The notes beneath the pieces are model-generated. The model did not search any database. It worked only from the letters and a program-made list of their open reading frames with translations, and was not told where the DNA came from. Below are positions 292 through 9,696 of a stretch of DNA of 38,141 nt, piece after piece. The translations under genes and the position numbers were made by a program. Origin of the DNA: Candidatus Rokuibacteriota bacterium (lineage in GTDB: Bacteria; Methylomirabilota; Methylomirabilia; Rokubacteriales; CSP1-6); assembly GCA_016209425.1 (NCBI GenBank), contig JACQWA010000295.1:1-38141 (forward strand), given 5' to 3'. How positions within the stretch are numbered: the stretch's first letter is position 1; the number at the start of each line of letters is the position of its first letter.

Positions 292-354
292 GCGCGCGAA
301 GCGGGGGAGAGGAGAACGCTGAGGGGAGAAGGGCCGGATGAGGAGGTCACGATC

Positions 355-2025
355 ATGCGCTTGGAAGTCCTGAACCCGCAGGCTCCGACCGTCGAGCGGA
401 CCGTCAAGGCGGCTCATCGCCCGCCCGACCTCAAGGGAAAGCGGATCGGTCTCTACTGGAACCTCAAGGCCGGCGGCGACCACGCCCTGACCCGGGCGGC
501 CGAGCTGCTCGCCCAGCGTTCCCCCGGCGTCACGTTCACGCGGTACTGGGGCGAGGTGGGGAGCCTCTTCCGCATGGCGACGGCGGCGGACGTCCAGCGC
601 ATCGCCGCTGAGTGCGACGCGGTCATCGGCACCACCAGCGACTGAGGGTCGTGCACGTCGTGGCTTGTCCACGACATGGTCGAGATGGAAGGGGCCGGTG
701 TGCCCACCGTGTCCTTCACGGCCGAAGCCTTCGCGAGGGACGCTCGCCGGAGTGCCGAAACCTTCGGTCTTCCGGCGCTGCCGATCGCCGTGGTTCCCCT
801 GCCTTTCACCAACCAGACCGCCGATGAAATCCGCCGTGCCGTCGAGGGCGCGATCGACCAGGTGATCCAGGCTCTGACCACCCCGCCCGCACTTCACGTC
901 GAGGTCCCCGCCGCCGCGGCGTCGGCCGAAAGCATCCCCATCGAGGGGTCCGACCCGCTGGATGCCCTCGACCGGATGACCCGCCTCTTCCTGGAACGCG
1001 GCTGGAGCGACGGCTTCCCGCTTGTCCCCCCGACCCCCGATCGGGTCCAGCTGATGCTCCGGGGCACGCGGCGGGTCGCGGGCGAGGTGGTCGCCGTGCT
1101 CGAGCCCGGCTTCGGCGTCGCCACCGTCGAGAAGATCGCGATCAACGGCGTGATGGCCGGCTGCCTGCCCGAGCACCTGCCGGTCCTCCTCGCCGCCGTG
1201 GAGGCGGTCTCGGACCCGAAGTTCTTCCTCCGGATCGCGGCCATGTCCACAGGGCCGCACGCTCCCCTCATGCTGGTGAACGGGCCCATGGCCACGAAGC
1301 TCGGGATCAACTCGGGCCGGTGCGCGCTCGGCCCCGGCTCTCAGAACCACGCCAACGTCGTGATCGGCCGCGCGCTCCGCCTGATCTACATGAACATCGG
1401 CCAGGCCTACCCGGGCGTGATGGACATGGACACGATCGGCTCGGCCAACAAGTTCAGTCTCTGCGTGGCGGAGAACGAGGAGGCCAATCCGTGGCAGCCC
1501 TTCCACGTGGAGCGCGGCTTCGCCCCCGACGCGAGCACGGTCACCGTCATGACCGTGTACGCCCAGTCCGACGTCTTCGATTTCTTCAACACCACTCCCG
1601 AAGGGATCCTCACCACGGTGGCGAGCGCCGCGGCGAACGCCGCCATCGCCTCCACGGGGCGCTGGCTGGAGGGAACCTGGGCCGACCCCAGAACGAAAAC
1701 CAAGATTCGCGACCGGAACTTGCTTCTGCTCTGCCCCGAGCACGCGGCGATCATTGCCCGGCACGGCTGGTCCAAGGCGGATGTGCGGAACTACCTCTAC
1801 CGCCACGCCACGCTCCCGTTCAGGGTTCTGCGCGCGAACCGCGAGCCCTCCACCCTGGTCGCCGGTCGCCCGGACCTTCAGTGGCTCACCGCCCACCCCG
1901 AACTCCCCGTTCCCCTGGTGGAAGCGCCGGAGTGCTACGAGGTCGCCGTGGTGGGCGGAGCGGCGGGGCGAAGCATGTACTTTTACGGGGCCCACGAGGC
2001 CGTCACGAAGCCCATCGAACGGTGA
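355..2025 (+). CDS. UGSC-family selenoprotein with in-frame TGA read as selenocysteine
   Basis: One 556-residue protein if the TGA at 643-645 (codon 97) is decoded as selenocysteine. The reading frame continues unchanged past the TGA, and the context reads GTTSD-U-GSC-TSWLVHDMVEMEG. This gives the U-G-S-C motif (U97, C100) for which the UGSC family is named, a CxxC-like redox pair. A perfect hairpin follows immediately. The start is ATG 355, with AGGAGG at 341-346. Residues 1 to about 180 form the UGSC domain (KGKRIGLYWNLKAGGD early on). Residues from about 190 to 556 form a second conserved region (RGWSDGFPLVPPTPDRV; INSGRCALGPGSQNHANVV) seen in long members of the family. The biochemical role is unknown; a thiol/selenol redox function is inferred. 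Conventional calling would split it into a 96-aa and a 449-aa product, both wrong. Selenocysteine machinery must be encoded elsewhere. Confidence 0.9.
657..675 (+). promoter_or_regulatory. Candidate bacterial SECIS hairpin
   Basis: Directly downstream of the TGA, GTCGTGG (657-663) pairs perfectly with CCACGAC (669-675) around a five-base loop CTTGT. There are 18 nt between the TGA and the loop, and the loop ends in GT. Bacterial SECIS elements sit inside the coding sequence just after the UGA, with a short stem and a G/U-containing apical loop bound by SelB, so position, size and loop all fit. The stem also encodes protein (SWLVHD), so part of its conservation could be due to coding. The call is strong in combination with the UGSC motif. 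Confidence 0.75.
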
Positions 2026-2119: not shown

Positions 2120-3850
2120 CTAGGCGCGCTCGACGATGTAGATGTGCTGCAGCATGTCCACGTAGATGTTGCCGTCCACCACGATCTCGCCCTGCTTGTT
2201 TCGCTCGAGCCCTTTGACCCAGGGCTTGGCTGCCCCGTAGCGCACCACCCAGGCCACCGGGACATATCCGACGTCGGACTGGAGGATCTCCTCGGCCTTC
2301 GCGTAGTGGGCCATGCGCTTCTTCGGGTCGCGGGTATCACGCCCGGTCTCCAGCTCCTTGTCGAAGGCATCGTTGACCCACGCCTGGCGTTTGCCCGTGG
2401 TCTTCTTGCCGTAGAAGGTGTCGAAGTACTCGTTGTGGGGATCCGGGTAGTCCATGAACCAGCGGATCCAGACGAACTGGAGGTCCTGCTTCCACAGCCG
2501 CTCGCGGAAGACTCGCGGCTCGAGCACCTCGAGGTCCGTCTTCATGTTGAGGTTCTCCAGCAGCACCGCCTGGACGGCCTCGGCGAGCGGCCTCGACCCC
2601 AGGGCCTCGTCCCGCATGGAGAGCGTGATCTTGGGCCAGTTCTTCCCGCCTTCGAAGGGCGTCCCCTTCAACATCTCCACGGCGAGCTTGCGGTCGAACC
2701 GCTGGAGGTCGCGGATCTTCTTGTCGTCCAGGGCCCCCGGAAAGCCGGGTGGGATCATGGAGTGGGCCGCGATGGCCAGGCCCTGGCTCACCTTGACGAC
2801 ATTCTCCCGGTCAATGGCGTGGGCCACGGCCTTACGCACCTTCAGGTTGTCGAAGGGGGGCTTGGTCACCTGGGGAAGCAGATACCAGGTGCCCGGATAC
2901 GGGAACCGGAAGACATCCTTCGACGCCCTCGGGTCTGCCTGGAGCCGCCTGAGATCGCCGGCCGCCAGGAGCGTCAGGTCGATCTCATTGTTCTCGTAGG
3001 GAAGCGCCCCGGAGGCCAGGGGGATGATCGGAATGATCACCTTGCTCAGGTGGACGTCCTTCACGCCGTAGTAGTAGGGGTTCTTCTTGAGAACCATCTG
3101 CTTGTTGTGCTCCCACGCCTCCAGGGTGAAGGGCCCGTTCGTGACGATATTGGCCGCCTCCGTCCACTTGTCGCCGTGCTTCTCCACGGCCGGCCGGTAC
3201 GCCGGGAGCGCCGCCAGGTAGGCTGCCAGCACCGGGAAGTAGCCGCGCGGCCCTTCCAGCGTGACCTCGAGCGTCCAGTCATCCTTGGCCTTGACACCCA
3301 CCTGGCTGGGGTCGGTGAGCTGCTTCTTGTTGAACGCCTCGCCGTTCTTGATGTCGTAGAGGAACGACGCGTAAGGGGCGGCGGTGGCAGGATCGAGCTG
3401 GCGCTTCCACGACCACTCGAAGTCGCGCGCCGTCAGGGGGGCGTTGTCCGACCAGCGGGAGTCCTTCCGGATGGCGAACGTCCAGACGGAGCCCTCCTTG
3501 TTTCCCTCGACCCTGGTCGCCATCCACGGCACCGCGACAAAGTCGGCATTGAAAACCATCAGCCCTGCCCAGAGGGCCGGCACACCCTGGCAGTACAGAT
3601 CCTTGTTGAAATCCTGGCTGGCCGGGTCCTGCTGGAACCAACCCCCTCCGCCGTATTTGAGGATCTGCTCCTTGGCCAGCTTCTCTCCCGGCGCCGGCTT
3701 GGTCGGCTTGGCGGCTTCTGCTCTGGTGATGAAGCCGAGCCCCCCGAGGGCAGCCATGGCCCCCACCACCTTCAGGAAGTCGCGCCGGCCGACGCCGATC
3801 GCCTCCAGCCGTTTCTCGAAAAGCGCCAGTTGCTCGTCGGGAATCCTCAT
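2120..3850 (-). CDS. ABC transporter substrate-binding protein, family 5 (peptide/nickel type)
   Basis: A 576-residue periplasmic solute-binding protein of the DppA/OppA family, which captures peptides or other small solutes and delivers them to the two permeases encoded just upstream. The N-terminus carries a twin-arginine export motif, GRRDFLKVV (R22, R23), then a hydrophobic stretch ending near ITRAEAA, so Tat export is likely. Family 5 features include WSWKRQLDPATAAPYAS, NGPFTLEAW near residue 240 and a core like NLKVRKAVAHAIDRE near 340. Length is normal for the family. ATG at 3850 is preceded by AAGGAGG with a 5-nt spacer. It is the last gene of a three-gene operon, 22 nt after the second permease. 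The true substrate cannot be read from the sequence. Confidence 0.93.
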   Translation of the reverse strand: MRIPDEQLALFEKRLEAIGVGRRDFLKVVGAMAALGGLGFITRAEAAKPTKPAPGEKLAKEQILKYGGGGWFQQDPASQDFNKDLYCQGVPALWAGLMVFNADFVAVPWMATRVEGNKEGSVWTFAIRKDSRWSDNAPLTARDFEWSWKRQLDPATAAPYASFLYDIKNGEAFNKKQLTDPSQVGVKAKDDWTLEVTLEGPRGYFPVLAAYLAALPAYRPAVEKHGDKWTEAANIVTNGPFTLEAWEHNKQMVLKKNPYYYGVKDVHLSKVIIPIIPLASGALPYENNEIDLTLLAAGDLRRLQADPRASKDVFRFPYPGTWYLLPQVTKPPFDNLKVRKAVAHAIDRENVVKVSQGLAIAAHSMIPPGFPGALDDKKIRDLQRFDRKLAVEMLKGTPFEGGKNWPKITLSMRDEALGSRPLAEAVQAVLLENLNMKTDLEVLEPRVFRERLWKQDLQFVWIRWFMDYPDPHNEYFDTFYGKKTTGKRQAWVNDAFDKELETGRDTRDPKKRMAHYAKAEEILQSDVGYVPVAWVVRYGAAKPWVKGLERNKQGEIVVDGNIYVDMLQHIYIVERA

Positions 3851-3872: not shown

Positions 3873-4775
3873 TTACTTCATCTTGGGGTCCAGCGCATCC
3901 CGAACCCCGTCCCCGAAGAAGGTAAACGACAGCATCGTGACCGCGATGGCGATCGACGGAAACACGCAGAGGTGCCAATACGAGCGGAGGAACTGCTGGT
4001 TCTCCCCGACCATCTGGCCCCAGGACGGCGTCGGCGGGTTGATCCCCACCCCGATGAACGACAGCGCCGCCTCGGTGAAGATCGCCTCCGGAATCCCGAA
4101 GCTCGCGGTGACGATGATCGGCGTCAGCGAGTTGGGGAAGAGGTGCCGCGTCATGAGGCGGAACCAGCCCGCGCCGAGGGCCCGCGCTCCCTCCACGTAC
4201 TCCTTCTCCTTGATCGAGAGGACCTGGGCGCGGGTCTGCCGGGCGATCCCGACCCAGCCGGTGAGGCCGATGGCGATGAAGATGTTCGTGAGGCCGGCCC
4301 CGAGCGCGGACATGACGAGAATGACGAAGAGCAGGCGGGGAAACGCGTACATCACGTCGATGAATCGTGTCAGGAAGAGATCCACCCGACCCCCGAAGTA
4401 CCCGGAGAGGAGACCGATGGGGACGCCGATCAGCACGACGATCGCCTGAGCGCCGAGTCCCACCAGCATCGAGACGCGCGCCCCGTAGATCATCCGCGAC
4501 AGCACATCGCGGCCCAGCTGATCCGTGCCAAGGGGAAACTCCTTCGAGGGAAACTCGTAGGTCCGACTGAAGCTGCTCTTCGTGTAAGGGTACGGAGCCA
4601 GCCCGTCGGCGAGCAGCGCCACGAGGCAGAGCAGGACGATGACGCCCCCCCCGAGGACGGCCAGCCGATTTCGAAGGAGCCGCCGCCACGCGTCCCGCCA
4701 CAGGCTCGTGGCGTGGACAGTCTCGGCGGGCCACACGACCCCCGCCGCACCCGGAACCCTCTGCACTACCGCCAT
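3873..4775 (-). CDS. ABC transporter permease, DppC/OppC type
   Basis: About 300 residues. This is the inner-membrane permease that pairs with the DppB-type subunit upstream. An N-terminal membrane segment (LAVLGGGVIVLLCLVALLA) precedes the typical periplasmic portion with FPLGTDQLGRDVLSR, a signature of the DppC subfamily. Several further membrane spans follow. The cytoplasmic EAA loop is clear (KEYVEGARALGAGWFRLMTR), the site that contacts the transporter ATPases. I chose ATG at 4775 (MAVVQRV); a TTG ten codons earlier is possible but less attractive. The 147-nt gap to the upstream permease is mostly filled by a dispersed hairpin repeat (4846-4924), unusual inside an ABC operon. Confidence 0.92.
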   Translation of the reverse strand: MAVVQRVPGAAGVVWPAETVHATSLWRDAWRRLLRNRLAVLGGGVIVLLCLVALLADGLAPYPYTKSSFSRTYEFPSKEFPLGTDQLGRDVLSRMIYGARVSMLVGLGAQAIVVLIGVPIGLLSGYFGGRVDLFLTRFIDVMYAFPRLLFVILVMSALGAGLTNIFIAIGLTGWVGIARQTRAQVLSIKEKEYVEGARALGAGWFRLMTRHLFPNSLTPIIVTASFGIPEAIFTEAALSFIGVGINPPTPSWGQMVGENQQFLRSYWHLCVFPSIAIAVTMLSFTFFGDGVRDALDPKMK

Positions 4776-4845
4776 GTGACGTTCGCCCGCACGCCCTTCG
4801 AGCAAGGGTTTTGCCGCCGCAATCGACGTGGAAGGCCCACGGTAA

Positions 4846-4924
4846 GCAGTTCGAGCGGGGGCTTCGCCCCCGCAACCCTCCCGGGGGAGGCATCGGAGGG
4901 GCGGCGAAGCCCCCCTCCGAGTTT
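4846..4924 (-). repeat. Dispersed two-hairpin repeat, family 1, copy C
   Basis: Read on the minus strand this is AAACTCGGAGGGGGGC..., a first hairpin based on CGGAGGGG/CCCCTCCG. A spacer CCTCCCCCGGGAGGGTT follows, then a second hairpin GCGGGGGC-GAA-GCCCCCGC. It aligns along its length with copies at 21418-21496 and 29096-29177. It lies in the permease-permease gap, touching the stop codon of the upstream permease. It resembles REP/BIME-type dispersed palindromes. Confidence 0.8.
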
Positions 4925-5849
4925 AATAGCGGATGCGCGGATCCAGAGCGCCATAAAGGAGGTCCACGATGAGGTTCATGATGGCCAGGAACGCCCCGTA
5001 CAGGAGGATCACGGCCATGATCATGGGATAGTCCCGGCCGGTCATGGACTCGACGAAGAACCGCCCCATGCCCGGGACGCGGAAGATGGACTCCACGAAG
5101 AAGGATCCGGTCCCCACCGCCGCGAACATCGGCCCGAGCAGCGTGACGACCGGAATAAAGGCGTTCTTCAGGACGTGCTTGAAGACCACCAGCCGCTCGC
5201 CGAGCCCCTTGGCGCGCGCCGTCAGGATGTAGTCGGACCGGATCACCTCGAGGATACTGGAGCGGGTGAACCGGGCGATGATTCCCATCGGGCCGAGGGC
5301 CAGCGTGATGGTCGGGAGGACCCACTCCCGCGGCTGACCCCAGCCGCCGGTGGGAAAGAGCGGGAGGAGGAGGGAGAACAGAACGATGAAGAAGACGGCG
5401 AGGATAAAGTTGGGTACGCTCACGCCGAGCGTCGCAAGCCCAACGCTCACATAGTCCCAGGAACGATTCTGATAGACGGCGGCGAGGATTCCCAGCGCCA
5501 CCCCGCCGAGGATGGCGAGGGCCAGGGCCATGCTACCCAGGAAGAGGGAGACGGGGAACGACGCGAGGAGAATTTCGCCCACCGTGCGTGTCTTATAGAC
5601 GAAGGAGTTCCCGAAATCGCCGCGGACCGCCTTGGCGACGAAGATGACGAACTGCTCATGAAGGGGTCTGTCCAGGCCGTACTTCTCGGCCAGGTTCTTC
5701 TGAGCCTCGGGGCTCAACGGGTTGGCGCCCTCGGCCACCGGATCCAGGGGGCTCCCCGGCGTGGCGTGCATGACCAGGAAGGTGACCAGGGCCATGGCCA
5801 GCAGCGTGGGGAGAAGCCAGAAGAGCCGCTGGACCGCGTACTTGAGCAC
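4923..5849 (-). CDS. ABC transporter permease, DppB/OppB type
   Basis: About 308 residues, the first gene of the ABC operon. The product is the membrane subunit of the dipeptide/oligopeptide/nickel permease superfamily. It begins (V/M)LKYAVQRLFWLLPTLLAM, a typical DppB N-terminus with the first membrane span, then HATPGSPLDP. The EAA loop reads RSDYILTARAKGLGERLVV, close to family consensus, and the C-terminus LLYGALDPRIRY is typical. I chose GTG at 5849, preceded by a G-rich Shine-Dalgarno-like run. The longer frame back to 5918 would start inside a good promoter, so it is rejected. No ATP-binding subunit gene is present in the window. Confidence 0.92.
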   Translation of the reverse strand: MLKYAVQRLFWLLPTLLAMALVTFLVMHATPGSPLDPVAEGANPLSPEAQKNLAEKYGLDRPLHEQFVIFVAKAVRGDFGNSFVYKTRTVGEILLASFPVSLFLGSMALALAILGGVALGILAAVYQNRSWDYVSVGLATLGVSVPNFILAVFFIVLFSLLLPLFPTGGWGQPREWVLPTITLALGPMGIIARFTRSSILEVIRSDYILTARAKGLGERLVVFKHVLKNAFIPVVTLLGPMFAAVGTGSFFVESIFRVPGMGRFFVESMTGRDYPMIMAVILLYGAFLAIMNLIVDLLYGALDPRIRY

Positions 5850-5979: not shown

Positions 5980-7827
5980 ATGACCATCCCCCTCACGATC
6001 CTCCCCGACAACCGGGAGCTCCAGGTCGCTCCCGGCACCACGATCCTCAAGGCCGCCCAGGCTGCCGGGATCGACATTACCGCGACGTGCGGCGGGAGGG
6101 GGCGCTGCACCTCGTGTCGCGTGAAGTTCGTCCGCGGAACCATCCCCCCGCCCACCATCATGGATGAGCTCCAGCTGGGAGACGACCTCGTTCGGGAGGG
6201 GTATCGCCTCTCCTGCCAGTGCCACCTCGCCGAGGCGACCGCCGTGCAGGTCGCCCCGCCGCTCGACGAGCAGGCCTTCCAGATTCTCGGGGCCGATCGA
6301 CGGGTACAGGACGTCGCGCGGGTCGTGATCGACGCCGGGATCACCAAGCAGGTCGTGAAAGTCTCCCTCCCCCGTGAGGAGCATCACCAGACATCCGACC
6401 TGGAAGAGCTCCTGACCGTGATCGGACGCACCACGGAGGACGTTTCCCCCGCCATCCTCAGGCAGCTTCCCCAGAGCCTGCGGGACGGCCAGGGAGAGGT
6501 CACCGTCACCACCTTCGGCCGTCAGGTTCTCGCCGTGGAGAAGGGCGACACCGCGCTCCTCAAGTTCGGCCTCGCCGTGGACATCGGCACCACCAGCGTG
6601 GTCACCACGCTGATCGAGCTGGAATCCGGCGAGCAACTTGCGACGGTGTCCAGCCTGAACCCCCAAGCCGTCTTCGGCGGCGACCTGATGTCGCGGATCG
6701 CCTTCGCCCAGTTCAACCCCGCCAACCTCCGGAAGCTCCAGACCCGGATCATCGGGCTCCTGAACCAGCATGTGGAGGAGATCGTTCGGCAATCGGGCGT
6801 CCTGGCCAAATGGCTCTACAAGGTCGTGGTCGTGGGCAACACCTGCATGCACCACATCCTTCTGGGGATCGACCCCTCCTACGTGGGACTGGCGCCGTAC
6901 GCGCCGGTCATGCGGCACCCCCTGGTCGTCCCCGCGCGCGAGCTCTTCCTCAAGGTGAACCCCGAGGCGCGGGTCTGCCTGCTCCCGATCGTGGCGGGAT
7001 TCGTCGGAGCCGATGCCGTGGCGGTGGCTCTGGCCACCCGGATCTACGAAAGTCCCGAGGTCAGGATCGCGGTGGACATCGGGACCAACGGCGAGGTGCT
7101 GCTCGGGTCGAAGGCGCGTCTCTGGGCCTGCTCCGCTCCCGCCGGCCCCGCCCTGGAGGGCGCCCAGGTCAAGCACGGCATGCGCGGGGCGCTCGGCGCC
7201 ATCGACCGCGTCAGGATCGAGGACGACGTCGAGATCCACACCATCGGCGAGGCAGGGCCGCTGGGCATCTGCGGCTCGGGCATCATCGACGCCCTGGCGT
7301 GCATGCTCGACACGGGCGTCGTGGACTCCACGGGGCTGATTCAGGTCGAGCAGCGGGATCGGCTTCCCCTCCGGCTCAGGGAGCGCGTCGTCATGCGCGG
7401 GGAGGAACGGCAGTTCGTCCTCGTCAAAAAGGGGGAGGTCGGCGCGCCGGCCGAGATCGTGCTCAGCCAGGATGACATCCGCCAGGTTCAGCTCGCCAAG
7501 GGGGCCATCGCGGCCGGCGTGGCGATGCTTCAGCATATTGCCGGAATCCCCTCCGAGCAGGTGGCCGAGCTCATGCTGGCCGGCGGGTTCGGCAACTACA
7601 TCTCGATCCGGAGCGCGCTGCGCATCGGGCTGATCCCGCCGCTCCCCGCCGGGAAGATCCGCTACGTGGGCAACGCCGCCTCGCTCGGCGCCCAGCTCTG
7701 TCTGGTCTCGGAAACCGAACGCCAAAGGGCCGAGCGCGTCGCGCGCAGCATCGAGCACGTCTCCCTGGCGGCGCACCCTGATTTTCAGGACATCTTCGTC
7801 GAATGCATGAACTTCCCCCCATCGTGA
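5980..7827 (+). CDS. [2Fe-2S]/ASKHA protein, corrinoid reductive activator type
   Basis: 615 residues. The N-terminal plant-type ferredoxin domain has C37-x5-C43-x2-C46 and C79 (or C81) for one [2Fe-2S] cluster (TCGGRGRCTSC). A linker region leads to an ASKHA ATPase fold (DUF4445 type) with two phosphate-binding motifs: VDIGTTS at 200-206 and VDIGTNGEV near 365. AGGFGNY lies near 533. This architecture is that of RACo/RamA-like proteins, which use ATP and an electron from the cluster to reduce inactive Co(II) corrinoid to Co(I) in methyltransferase systems. The UroD-type methyltransferase-like gene 0.9 kb downstream fits that role, but no corrinoid protein is encoded here. A longer frame exists upstream, but the ferredoxin domain begins at ATG 5980. 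Confidence 0.88.
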   Translation: MTIPLTILPDNRELQVAPGTTILKAAQAAGIDITATCGGRGRCTSCRVKFVRGTIPPPTIMDELQLGDDLVREGYRLSCQCHLAEATAVQVAPPLDEQAFQILGADRRVQDVARVVIDAGITKQVVKVSLPREEHHQTSDLEELLTVIGRTTEDVSPAILRQLPQSLRDGQGEVTVTTFGRQVLAVEKGDTALLKFGLAVDIGTTSVVTTLIELESGEQLATVSSLNPQAVFGGDLMSRIAFAQFNPANLRKLQTRIIGLLNQHVEEIVRQSGVLAKWLYKVVVVGNTCMHHILLGIDPSYVGLAPYAPVMRHPLVVPARELFLKVNPEARVCLLPIVAGFVGADAVAVALATRIYESPEVRIAVDIGTNGEVLLGSKARLWACSAPAGPALEGAQVKHGMRGALGAIDRVRIEDDVEIHTIGEAGPLGICGSGIIDALACMLDTGVVDSTGLIQVEQRDRLPLRLRERVVMRGEERQFVLVKKGEVGAPAEIVLSQDDIRQVQLAKGAIAAGVAMLQHIAGIPSEQVAELMLAGGFGNYISIRSALRIGLIPPLPAGKIRYVGNAASLGAQLCLVSETERQRAERVARSIEHVSLAAHPDFQDIFVECMNFPPS

Positions 7828-8687
7828 GAGTCCGCGCCGACATTCTCGGCGTGGAGGCGGGGCCGGGGCTCGCGGAGATCGACGCCCGCTGGCTCATGGC
7901 CTATGCCGCCGGGATCGGCGAGGCGAACCCGGTCTACCTGGACACTTCGCGCAAAGATGGGATCGTGGCCCACCCGGTCTTCCCAGTCTGCTACGAGTGG
8001 CCGCTGGCCCCGGCGCTCCGGGCCAAGACAATTCACCCCGACGTCGAGCTGATGGGGGTGCATGCGACCCACGACCTCTTGCTCCACCGGCTTGTCGTTC
8101 CGGGCGACCGACTCACGACGACCGCCCGGATCGTGGGCGTCGAACAGCGCAAACCCGGGGCTTACGTCGTCACCCGGTACGAGACGCGGGACGCTTCGGG
8201 CGCGCCCGTCACCACCACCGATTACGGGACGCTCTATCGTGGGGTGGAGACCGCCGGGCCGGACCGCTGGCTCATCGACGCCCCCGCTGACCCGCACCCC
8301 GCTGACGGGCCGGCCCGTTGGCACGCGCGCGTTCCCATCCTCGCCGGGGCCGCCCACGTCTATACCGAGTGCGCGAGGATCTGGAACCCCGTCCATACCG
8401 ACCGGGCCGTCGCCGCGGCGGCGGGCCTGCCGGACATCATCCTCCACGGCACCGCCACGCTGGCGCTGGCGGTCTCGGCACTGCTCGCGCGCGAGGCCGA
8501 TGACGACCCCACGCGGGTGAAGCGGATCCGCTGCCGGTTCGCCGCGATGGTCCTGATGCCGTCCACCCTCACCGTTCAGGGGCTCACGCGGGAGAAGGCG
8601 CCCGACGGCGAAGCGGTCGGGTTCCGCGTCCTCACCGAGCAGGGGGCGCCCGCGATCCGCGACGGTCTCGTCATCCTTCACGGCTGA
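7803..8687 (+). CDS. MaoC-like double hot-dog protein with altered active sites
   Basis: 294 residues, overlapping the activator gene by 25 nt. Two MaoC/FAS1-type hot-dog halves are visible. The N-terminal one has YAAGIGEANPVYLD, the C-terminal one has ARIWNPVHTDRAVAAAAG followed by LHGTATLAL. Active hydratases of this family carry a D-x-N-P-x-H dyad. Here the first half has E-A-N-P-V-Y (Asp to Glu, His to Tyr) and the second has I-W-N-P-V-H (Asp lost, His kept). The fold call is good, but simple enoyl-CoA hydratase activity is doubtful. It could be an acyl-CoA-binding or changed-specificity hydratase. Its place between the activator and UroD-like genes suggests a shared operon. Confidence 0.82.
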   Translation: MHELPPIVRVRADILGVEAGPGLAEIDARWLMAYAAGIGEANPVYLDTSRKDGIVAHPVFPVCYEWPLAPALRAKTIHPDVELMGVHATHDLLLHRLVVPGDRLTTTARIVGVEQRKPGAYVVTRYETRDASGAPVTTTDYGTLYRGVETAGPDRWLIDAPADPHPADGPARWHARVPILAGAAHVYTECARIWNPVHTDRAVAAAAGLPDIILHGTATLALAVSALLAREADDDPTRVKRIRCRFAAMVLMPSTLTVQGLTREKAPDGEAVGFRVLTEQGAPAIRDGLVILHG

Positions 8688-8700
8688 TCCCGGGGCAACG

Positions 8701-9696
8701 ATGACCAAGCACGAGCGAATCCAGGCCGCCATCGCGCGGAGACCGGTGGACCGCGTCCCCTATGCCGTCTGGTGTCACTTTCCAGAGGTGGACCGCTCCA
8801 CGGCCGGGCTCGCCCAGGCGACGCTCCGCTTTCACCAGCGGTATGGCTCAGATTTCCTCAAGGTCACCCCGGCCGCCGGCTACGCGGTGGCGGACTGGGG
8901 GTGTGTGGAGTCCGACACAGTGCTGCCGGACGGCCACCGTCCCTGCGCCTCCCACGCCGTCAACGCCGCCGCCGACTGGAAAAAGATCAAACCCCTCGAC
9001 ATCACCACGACCGCCTACGGTCAGCACTTGGAGAGCATTGTCCGAGTTGTCGTGGACAGGCGAGCCGACGCGCCGGTCGTGCCGACCATGTTCAGTCCCC
9101 TCTCCCTCGCCCGGAAGCTCTCAGGCGATAGGTTGAACCAGGACCTCCGAGAGCGGCCCGAAGCCGTGGTGGCGGCGCTGGAGGCGATCACCGATACCCT
9201 GATTCGCTTCCTCACCCTCTGTCTGGACGAGGAGGCCGCCGGGATCTTCTACTCGATCCAGGCCGCCAGCCGCCGGTTCCACACCGCGGGAGAATACGCG
9301 AGGTTCGGCGAGCCGTACGACCGGAGGATCCTCGAGGTCACCATGGCGCGGGCCCGCCTCGTGATCGTCCACGCCCACGGCGACGAGCTGATGTTCGACC
9401 AGCTCTCGGCGTTGCCCGGGCACGCCTGGAACTGGGACGATCGCTCCGCGGGGCCGTCGCTCAGAGGGGGAAAGGCCAAGGTCACGGGCGCGGTGATCGG
9501 CGGCGCGAACCAGTCGGCCACCCTCCACGACGGTACGCCCGAAGACGTCCGGGCGGAGGTCATGGACGCCGTGGACCAGACTGACGGGATCGGCCTCATC
9601 GTAGGCCCAGGCTGTGTGCTTCCCCCCGGAGTGCCCGACGAGAACGTGACGGCTCTGGTCAGGGCACTGGGTGGAACAGTCGGGATGGATCTCTGA
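8701..9696 (+). CDS. UroD/MtaA-family methyltransferase-like protein
   Basis: 331 residues, the usual size for the uroporphyrinogen decarboxylase superfamily. It starts MTKHERIQAAIARRPVDRVP, the typical opening of the MtaA/CmuA branch, in which zinc-dependent enzymes move methyl groups between corrinoid proteins and thiols. MtaA-type enzymes use an H-x-C...C zinc site. Here the pattern is H224-A-H226-G and C305 (VGPGCVLPPG), so the middle cysteine is a histidine. The C-terminus PPGVPDENVTALV is also characteristic. True UroD heme enzymes do not have this C-terminal motif. The gene starts 13 nt after the MaoC-like gene and overlaps the next gene by 26 nt. The methyl donor and acceptor are unknown. 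Confidence 0.85.
   Translation: MTKHERIQAAIARRPVDRVPYAVWCHFPEVDRSTAGLAQATLRFHQRYGSDFLKVTPAAGYAVADWGCVESDTVLPDGHRPCASHAVNAAADWKKIKPLDITTTAYGQHLESIVRVVVDRRADAPVVPTMFSPLSLARKLSGDRLNQDLRERPEAVVAALEAITDTLIRFLTLCLDEEAAGIFYSIQAASRRFHTAGEYARFGEPYDRRILEVTMARARLVIVHAHGDELMFDQLSALPGHAWNWDDRSAGPSLRGGKAKVTGAVIGGANQSATLHDGTPEDVRAEVMDAVDQTDGIGLIVGPGCVLPPGVPDENVTALVRALGGTVGMDL

Follow-up and report, generated by a model that had tools for sequence, protein, structure and literature searches.

The locus described here raises a two-part question: does an open reading frame interrupted by an in-frame TGA encode a single selenoprotein, and if so, what kind of chemistry might that protein perform? The window, meaning the whole 38,141-nucleotide stretch that was analyzed (GenBank contig JACQWA010000295.1), is contig C230 of a 4.45-Mb, 94% complete assembly of a Candidatus Rokuibacteriota bacterium. 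Within it, a single frame runs from ATG 355 to the TGA at 2023-2025 through the in-frame TGA at 643-645. An initial annotation, made from the letters alone, had proposed that this split frame is one UGSC-family selenoprotein, with the TGA followed in frame by GSC and 459 further residues, and that standard annotation would yield two wrong proteins. Standard gene calling does split the gene, and read-through translation gives a 556-residue product carrying the motif U97-G98-S99-C100 (U denoting selenocysteine [Sec]) and 459 residues after U97. The proposal is borne out by a match to PF24696, the presence of Sec machinery, paralogues with the same TGA, and homologues that read through the codon. 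Judged by its sequence, the window gene adds to the known UGSC family a new member, one that is both divergent and fused. The C-terminal region, previously described as unexplained, is the usual partner domain of this family, here fused.

Decoding of UGA 643 as Sec, aided by a downstream hairpin and by the organism's own Sec machinery, is well supported on the basis of that machinery, conservation of the TGA, a hairpin excess across the family, and the distribution of selA. The complete set of selA, selB, selC, and selD was found: tRNA-Sec (70.9 bits), selB, and selA lie together on contig C423 and selD lies on contig C441 of the same assembly, all exceeding their respective curated cutoffs. 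The selD gene (L027, C441:2578-3519) itself has an in-frame TGA and probably encodes a selenoprotein too. All five UGSC domains of the window genome have one TGA, at the same codon position. We also compiled 121 homologous codons from the window genome, its class, and public genomes, with a few loci overlapping; 117 are TGA (114 distinct copies), 3 are TGC, and 1 is TGT. The frame is conserved across this codon at ∼50% protein identity, and homologous frames run through the codon, including that of locus L038, which has Cys (TGC) there. Among 13 tested genomes with Sec copies, selA was full length in 12, the 13th retaining only a contig-edge fragment; of the four genomes with Cys copies, two lack selA and two keep it, such that the match between Sec/Cys state and selA is imperfect. 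Inspection of the sequence before the downstream ATG 676 gave no ribosome-binding signal comparable to the AGGAGG upstream of ATG 355.

The initial annotation also described a perfect 7-bp hairpin with a CTTGT loop beginning 11 nt past the TGA, and this is present exactly so, with the loop beginning 19 nt past the TGA. Its reading as a selenocysteine insertion sequence (SECIS) fared unevenly: the hairpin exists and is conserved across the family, but the window copy alone is not significant (z = 0.28 versus dinucleotide shuffles of 640-695; equaled by 13% of synonymous shuffles). For the 114 TGA homologues, the best stem score, defined as the number of pairs with GU counted as half, was 7.6, whereas their synonymous shuffles gave 4.9 (p = 2e-20 by Wilcoxon test, calculated over sequences that are not independent), and the loop starts 18 to 19 nt past the TGA in 92 of them. 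The three TGC copies lack such an excess (4.5 versus 4.9 shuffled), and the lone TGT copy scores 6.0 versus 4.6 shuffled. Within the window subfamily, all eight Sec copies share a CTT (Leu) loop codon and a TCGTGG/CCACGA stem core, both of which are lost in the Cys copy L038. No Rfam match was found near the hairpin.

The N-terminal domain matches PF24696 with 135.9 bits (cutoff of 25) over profile positions 1 to 171 of 172. The NCBIfam equivalog NF041046 (UGSC_fam) scores 108.9 bits, below its cutoff of 125, and we therefore assign the window protein to a divergent UGSC subfamily. AlphaFold2 modeling of the whole chain with 105 homologues gave one confident two-domain model (predicted local distance difference test [pLDDT] score of 94; predicted template modeling [TM] score of 0.93), in which beta strands and alpha helices alternate in the UGSC domain and Sec97 stands at a helix start. 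The best Protein Data Bank (PDB) matches of this domain are of the flavodoxin/Rossmann type, and no thioredoxin occurs among the 50 best. UGSC proteins were suggested to be thioredoxin-like in fold in a published survey (PMC2398784); contrary to this filing, the model newly indicates that the domain is not thioredoxin-like.

Profile comparisons suggest a different kinship. When UGSC-bearing proteins were scanned, 31 of 69 matched TIGR01917 (glycine reductase selenoprotein B), at best with an E value of 2.3e-6, and further sequences matched the TIGR01918, PrdB, GrdF, and GrdH models. Aligned PrdB-like Sec proteins of this phylum, compared with the UGSC profile, matched it Sec on Sec (93.7% probability; P = 1.9e-7), with a score of 55.5 versus a maximum of 17.2 over 20 column shuffles. 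The window protein is not itself a member of the GrdB/PrdB family (12.1 bits versus a cutoff of 602; TIGR01917, TIGR04483, and PF07355 tested), and its better-matching relatives are not annotated as members either. The UGSC domain appears to be distantly homologous to the Sec domain of GrdB and PrdB, from glycine and D-proline reductases. This relationship seems to be new: no published statement of it was found in the literature searched, which left out most subscription papers. Proteins resembling PrdB/GrdB and encoded with an in-frame TGA are themselves common in the phylum, occurring in 68 of 95 genomes (L189, L190, and L143-L172), including two loci of the window genome, G000 (L189, C376:12364-13032; L190, C239:12066-12716), and every one scores below the D-proline reductase cutoff.

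Residues 190 to 556 match a separate gene adjoining each of the four other UGSC genes in the window genome (37 to 40% identity), located downstream of the UGSC gene at two loci and upstream at the other two. Within the window's class, 71 of 95 genomes have the domain, with up to 15 copies in a single genome, and public genomes extend its range to Chloroflexota, Beta-, Gamma-, and Deltaproteobacteria, Actinomycetes, Rokubacteria, Binatia, and others. For 128 of 140 partner-domain hits, a same-strand UGSC domain lies no more than 1.5 kb away; the other 12 are at contig ends, slightly farther off, or truly alone. Solitary copies include L055, L059, L108, L109, and a sixth copy in the window genome (C57:3089-4120); these may work with a UGSC protein encoded elsewhere or have another role. 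Modeled alone, the partner domain reaches a pLDDT of 93, and its invariant or near-invariant residues are Asp219, Gly220, Asn264, Cys270, Asn334, Arg339, Asn347, Glu373, and Trp380. No known family was found for it in Pfam, NCBIfam, PDB sequences, PDB folds, or viral folds, and no solved structure was accepted as a match (best E value of 9e-3; TM score of 0.21). The fumarase alpha subunit and cyclic amide hydrolases were considered as fold relatives and not accepted, giving only weak matches (TM score of ∼0.21). The model thus describes a confidently predicted fold that is apparently unsolved, which is new here. Additional Sec residues in the partner domain, flagged at some loci by one TGA, were likewise discarded, as these are in-frame stops at the C-terminal end in the loci read.

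The two domains appear to evolve together. Over 107 pairs, UGSC and partner distances correlate with r = 0.88 (permutation maximum of 0.10), and for 12 paralogous pairs of a single Chloroflexi genome, r = 0.93. These comparisons support co-evolution and a view of the C-terminal part of the window protein as a regular companion of UGSC domains. Among the 126 copies of the tree set, 36 are fused with the UGSC domain first. On the partner-domain tree, the window copy falls inside a set of nine fused copies (Shimodaira-Hasegawa-like approximate likelihood ratio test [SH-aLRT] support of 99), within a set of sixteen (support of 97), and the fused state requires approximately seven changes, so fusion (or splitting) has happened repeatedly. 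Such a fusion is not new as a kind, since the 2008 Global Ocean Sampling paper reports a UGSC/Unknown_1 fusion in its Fig. S1A (PMC2398784); by position and description, rather than letter by letter, our partner domain is probably the published Unknown_1.

Solute receptors, chiefly TctC (19/145) and SBP_bac_5 (14/145), predominate among the genes in operons with related pairs, alongside a spread of coenzyme A (CoA)-ester and hydrolase genes. Together these neighbors suggest, weakly, catabolism of imported compounds. In the window clade, 8 of 16 members have an SBP_bac_5 gene no more than 2 kb away, versus 3 of 79 others (Fisher's exact test, 1e-5). A strong link to peptide-type receptors was nevertheless rejected, and the association is kept only as a lead, because seven of the eight cases come from one Chloroflexi genome. 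The Chloroflexi genome JACPQD01 (loci L034, L035, L037, L050, L054, and L087) contains at least 12 UGSC/partner pairs, many of them beside SBP_bac_5 genes.

With the U-x-x-C motif, the distant homology, and a regular second subunit in hand, the best reading is an analogous selenol reductase, and we hold it slightly more probable than its denial that the window protein is a two-domain selenoenzyme working in the manner of GrdB and PrdB, the Sec subunits of glycine and D-proline reductases. The mechanism proposed for D-proline reductase has the selenolate of PrdB attacking the alpha-carbon of a substrate that the pyruvoyl subunit PrdA holds, with a PrdB cysteine then resolving the selenoether (PMC3091704). 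By analogy, the Sec97 selenolate, at the helix start of the Rossmann-like domain, would attack a small substrate on the partner domain, held there by Asp219, Asn264, Cys270, Asn334, Arg339, Glu373, and Trp380. Cys100 would then release the product with formation of an Se-S bond, which a general thiol reductant would reopen. The presence of several paralogues per genome, together with nearby solute-receptor genes, suggests that different imported substrates are used. Several observations weigh against this reading: PF07355 is absent from the Pfam families listed for UGSC proteins, operon neighbors of related pairs include no consistent redox partner gene, a few partner domains have no UGSC domain nearby, and the window genome's five pairs taken alone correlate with r = 0.25, which is not significant. 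In addition, Pfam and NCBIfam scans found no homology of the partner domain to the pyruvoyl subunits GrdE and PrdA, so substrate activation is not simply transferable from the Grd/Prd enzymes. A further-reaching and doubtful possibility is that UGSC and its partner constitute an unrecognized class of two-part selenoenzyme, common among uncultured bacteria and multiplied to many copies per genome, in which a GrdB/PrdB-type selenol and a new-fold substrate-activating subunit, possibly generating its own cofactor at the conserved Cys270, would break C-N or C-heteroatom bonds of imported compounds.

Other chemistries were weighed against the selenol reductase. The domain pair could instead be a selenol-dependent isomerase, lyase, or transferase. 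Its selenolate would then serve as nucleophilic catalyst, and the principal chemistry, on an organic acid or a peptide-like compound taken up from outside, would fall to the partner. Neighbors that are mostly solute receptors and CoA-type catabolic genes, not redox enzymes, would suit such an enzyme, as would the enzyme-like set of invariant polar residues in the partner domain. We regard this as improbable, given that the conserved U-x-x-C pair and the GrdB/PrdB homology indicate an Se-S redox step; moreover, TctC genes are very common in Betaproteobacteria generally. A thiol oxidoreductase of the thioredoxin-like type, with disulfides or peroxides as its targets and the fused domain as its protein substrate or an unrelated redox domain, would also make sense of a UxxC redox site. 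The confident beta-alpha model, its flavodoxin/Rossmann structural neighbors with no thioredoxin among the 50 best PDB matches, and sequence profiles pointing to GrdB/PrdB make that decidedly unlikely. Finally, although standard gene calling splits the frame and the window hairpin by itself is within chance, it is scarcely credible that TGA 643 ends translation or reflects a sequencing error, with 355-645 and 676-2025 being separate products or a decaying gene, in view of the same TGA in five of five window-genome copies and nearly all homologues, protein identity across the codon, the Cys codon of L038, the complete Sec machinery, and an ATG 676 that lacks a ribosome-binding site.

Features of the selenoprotein gene, with positions numbered from the first letter of the window
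Feature	Positions	Strand	Basis
Ribosome-binding site AGGAGG, 8 nt 5' of ATG 355	341..346	+	Sequence
Coding sequence of the 556-residue selenoprotein, UGSC plus partner domain (stop TGA 2023-2025 included)	355..2025	+	Translation, domain matches
UGSC domain (PF24696), predicted Rossmann/flavodoxin-like, apparently GrdB/PrdB-like around Sec	364..879	+	Profile matches, AlphaFold2 model
Sec97 codon, TGA	643..645	+	Translation; homologous codons
Cys100 codon of the U-x-x-C motif, presumed resolving cysteine	652..654	+	97% conserved in alignment; role inferred
SECIS-type hairpin, 7-bp stem 657-663/669-675, CTTGT loop	657..675	+	Sequence; family conservation
Interdomain linker, low confidence	880..945	+	pLDDT of ∼60 at residues 181-190
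Partner domain, probably the published Unknown_1, no solved-structure match	946..2022	+	Neighbor-gene homology, models
Cys270 codon, within the partner-domain motif NxVMAGC	1162..1164	+	96% conserved

Around the gene, the open reading frame immediately upstream had been put forward as a possible partner. We set it aside: the contig start truncates it, no Pfam family matches it, and no homologue occurs at related loci. After the selenoprotein gene, an oligopeptide-type ATP-binding cassette transporter is encoded on the opposite strand (receptor, 2120-3850; permeases, 3873-5849). Farther on, at 5980-9696, a RACo-type corrinoid activator, a MaoC-like dehydratase, and a URO-D-family (methyltransferase-like) gene are grouped, which suggests a corrinoid methyl-transfer cluster. 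Among the public genomes, three metagenome-assembled genomes titled Bordetella parapertussis (L061, L081, and L103) have loci that group with uncultured Betaproteobacteria; their isolate codes resemble those of betaproteobacterial metagenome-assembled genomes, and the titles look mislabeled.

Environmental surveys place UGSC proteins among their most abundant selenoproteins (PMC2398784). The family is widespread in bacteria and has been without an assigned function and filed as thioredoxin-like. What is new here is the GrdB/PrdB relationship and the finding that the C-terminal part is a regular partner with an apparently unsolved fold; this placement and this partner turn the matter into a concrete question, namely, what gets reduced? 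The natural fusion, which puts both halves in one chain, is handy for structural work.

Three known systems invite comparison. With the UGSC family as described (PF24696; PMC2398784), the window protein shares the UxxC motif, the TGA codon, and a full-length domain match, and it differs in holding the partner domain in the same chain. The Global Ocean Sampling UGSC/Unknown_1 fusion likewise combines a UGSC domain with a conserved second domain that is also found alone, although it comes from a marine data set and the window genome does not. Relative to PrdB and to GrdB, GrdF, and GrdH, the window protein has a partner domain of unmatched fold and scores far below the family cutoffs; what it has in common with them is a distant but significant homology in the Sec region, the UxxC motif, and the pairing of a Sec subunit with a second subunit.
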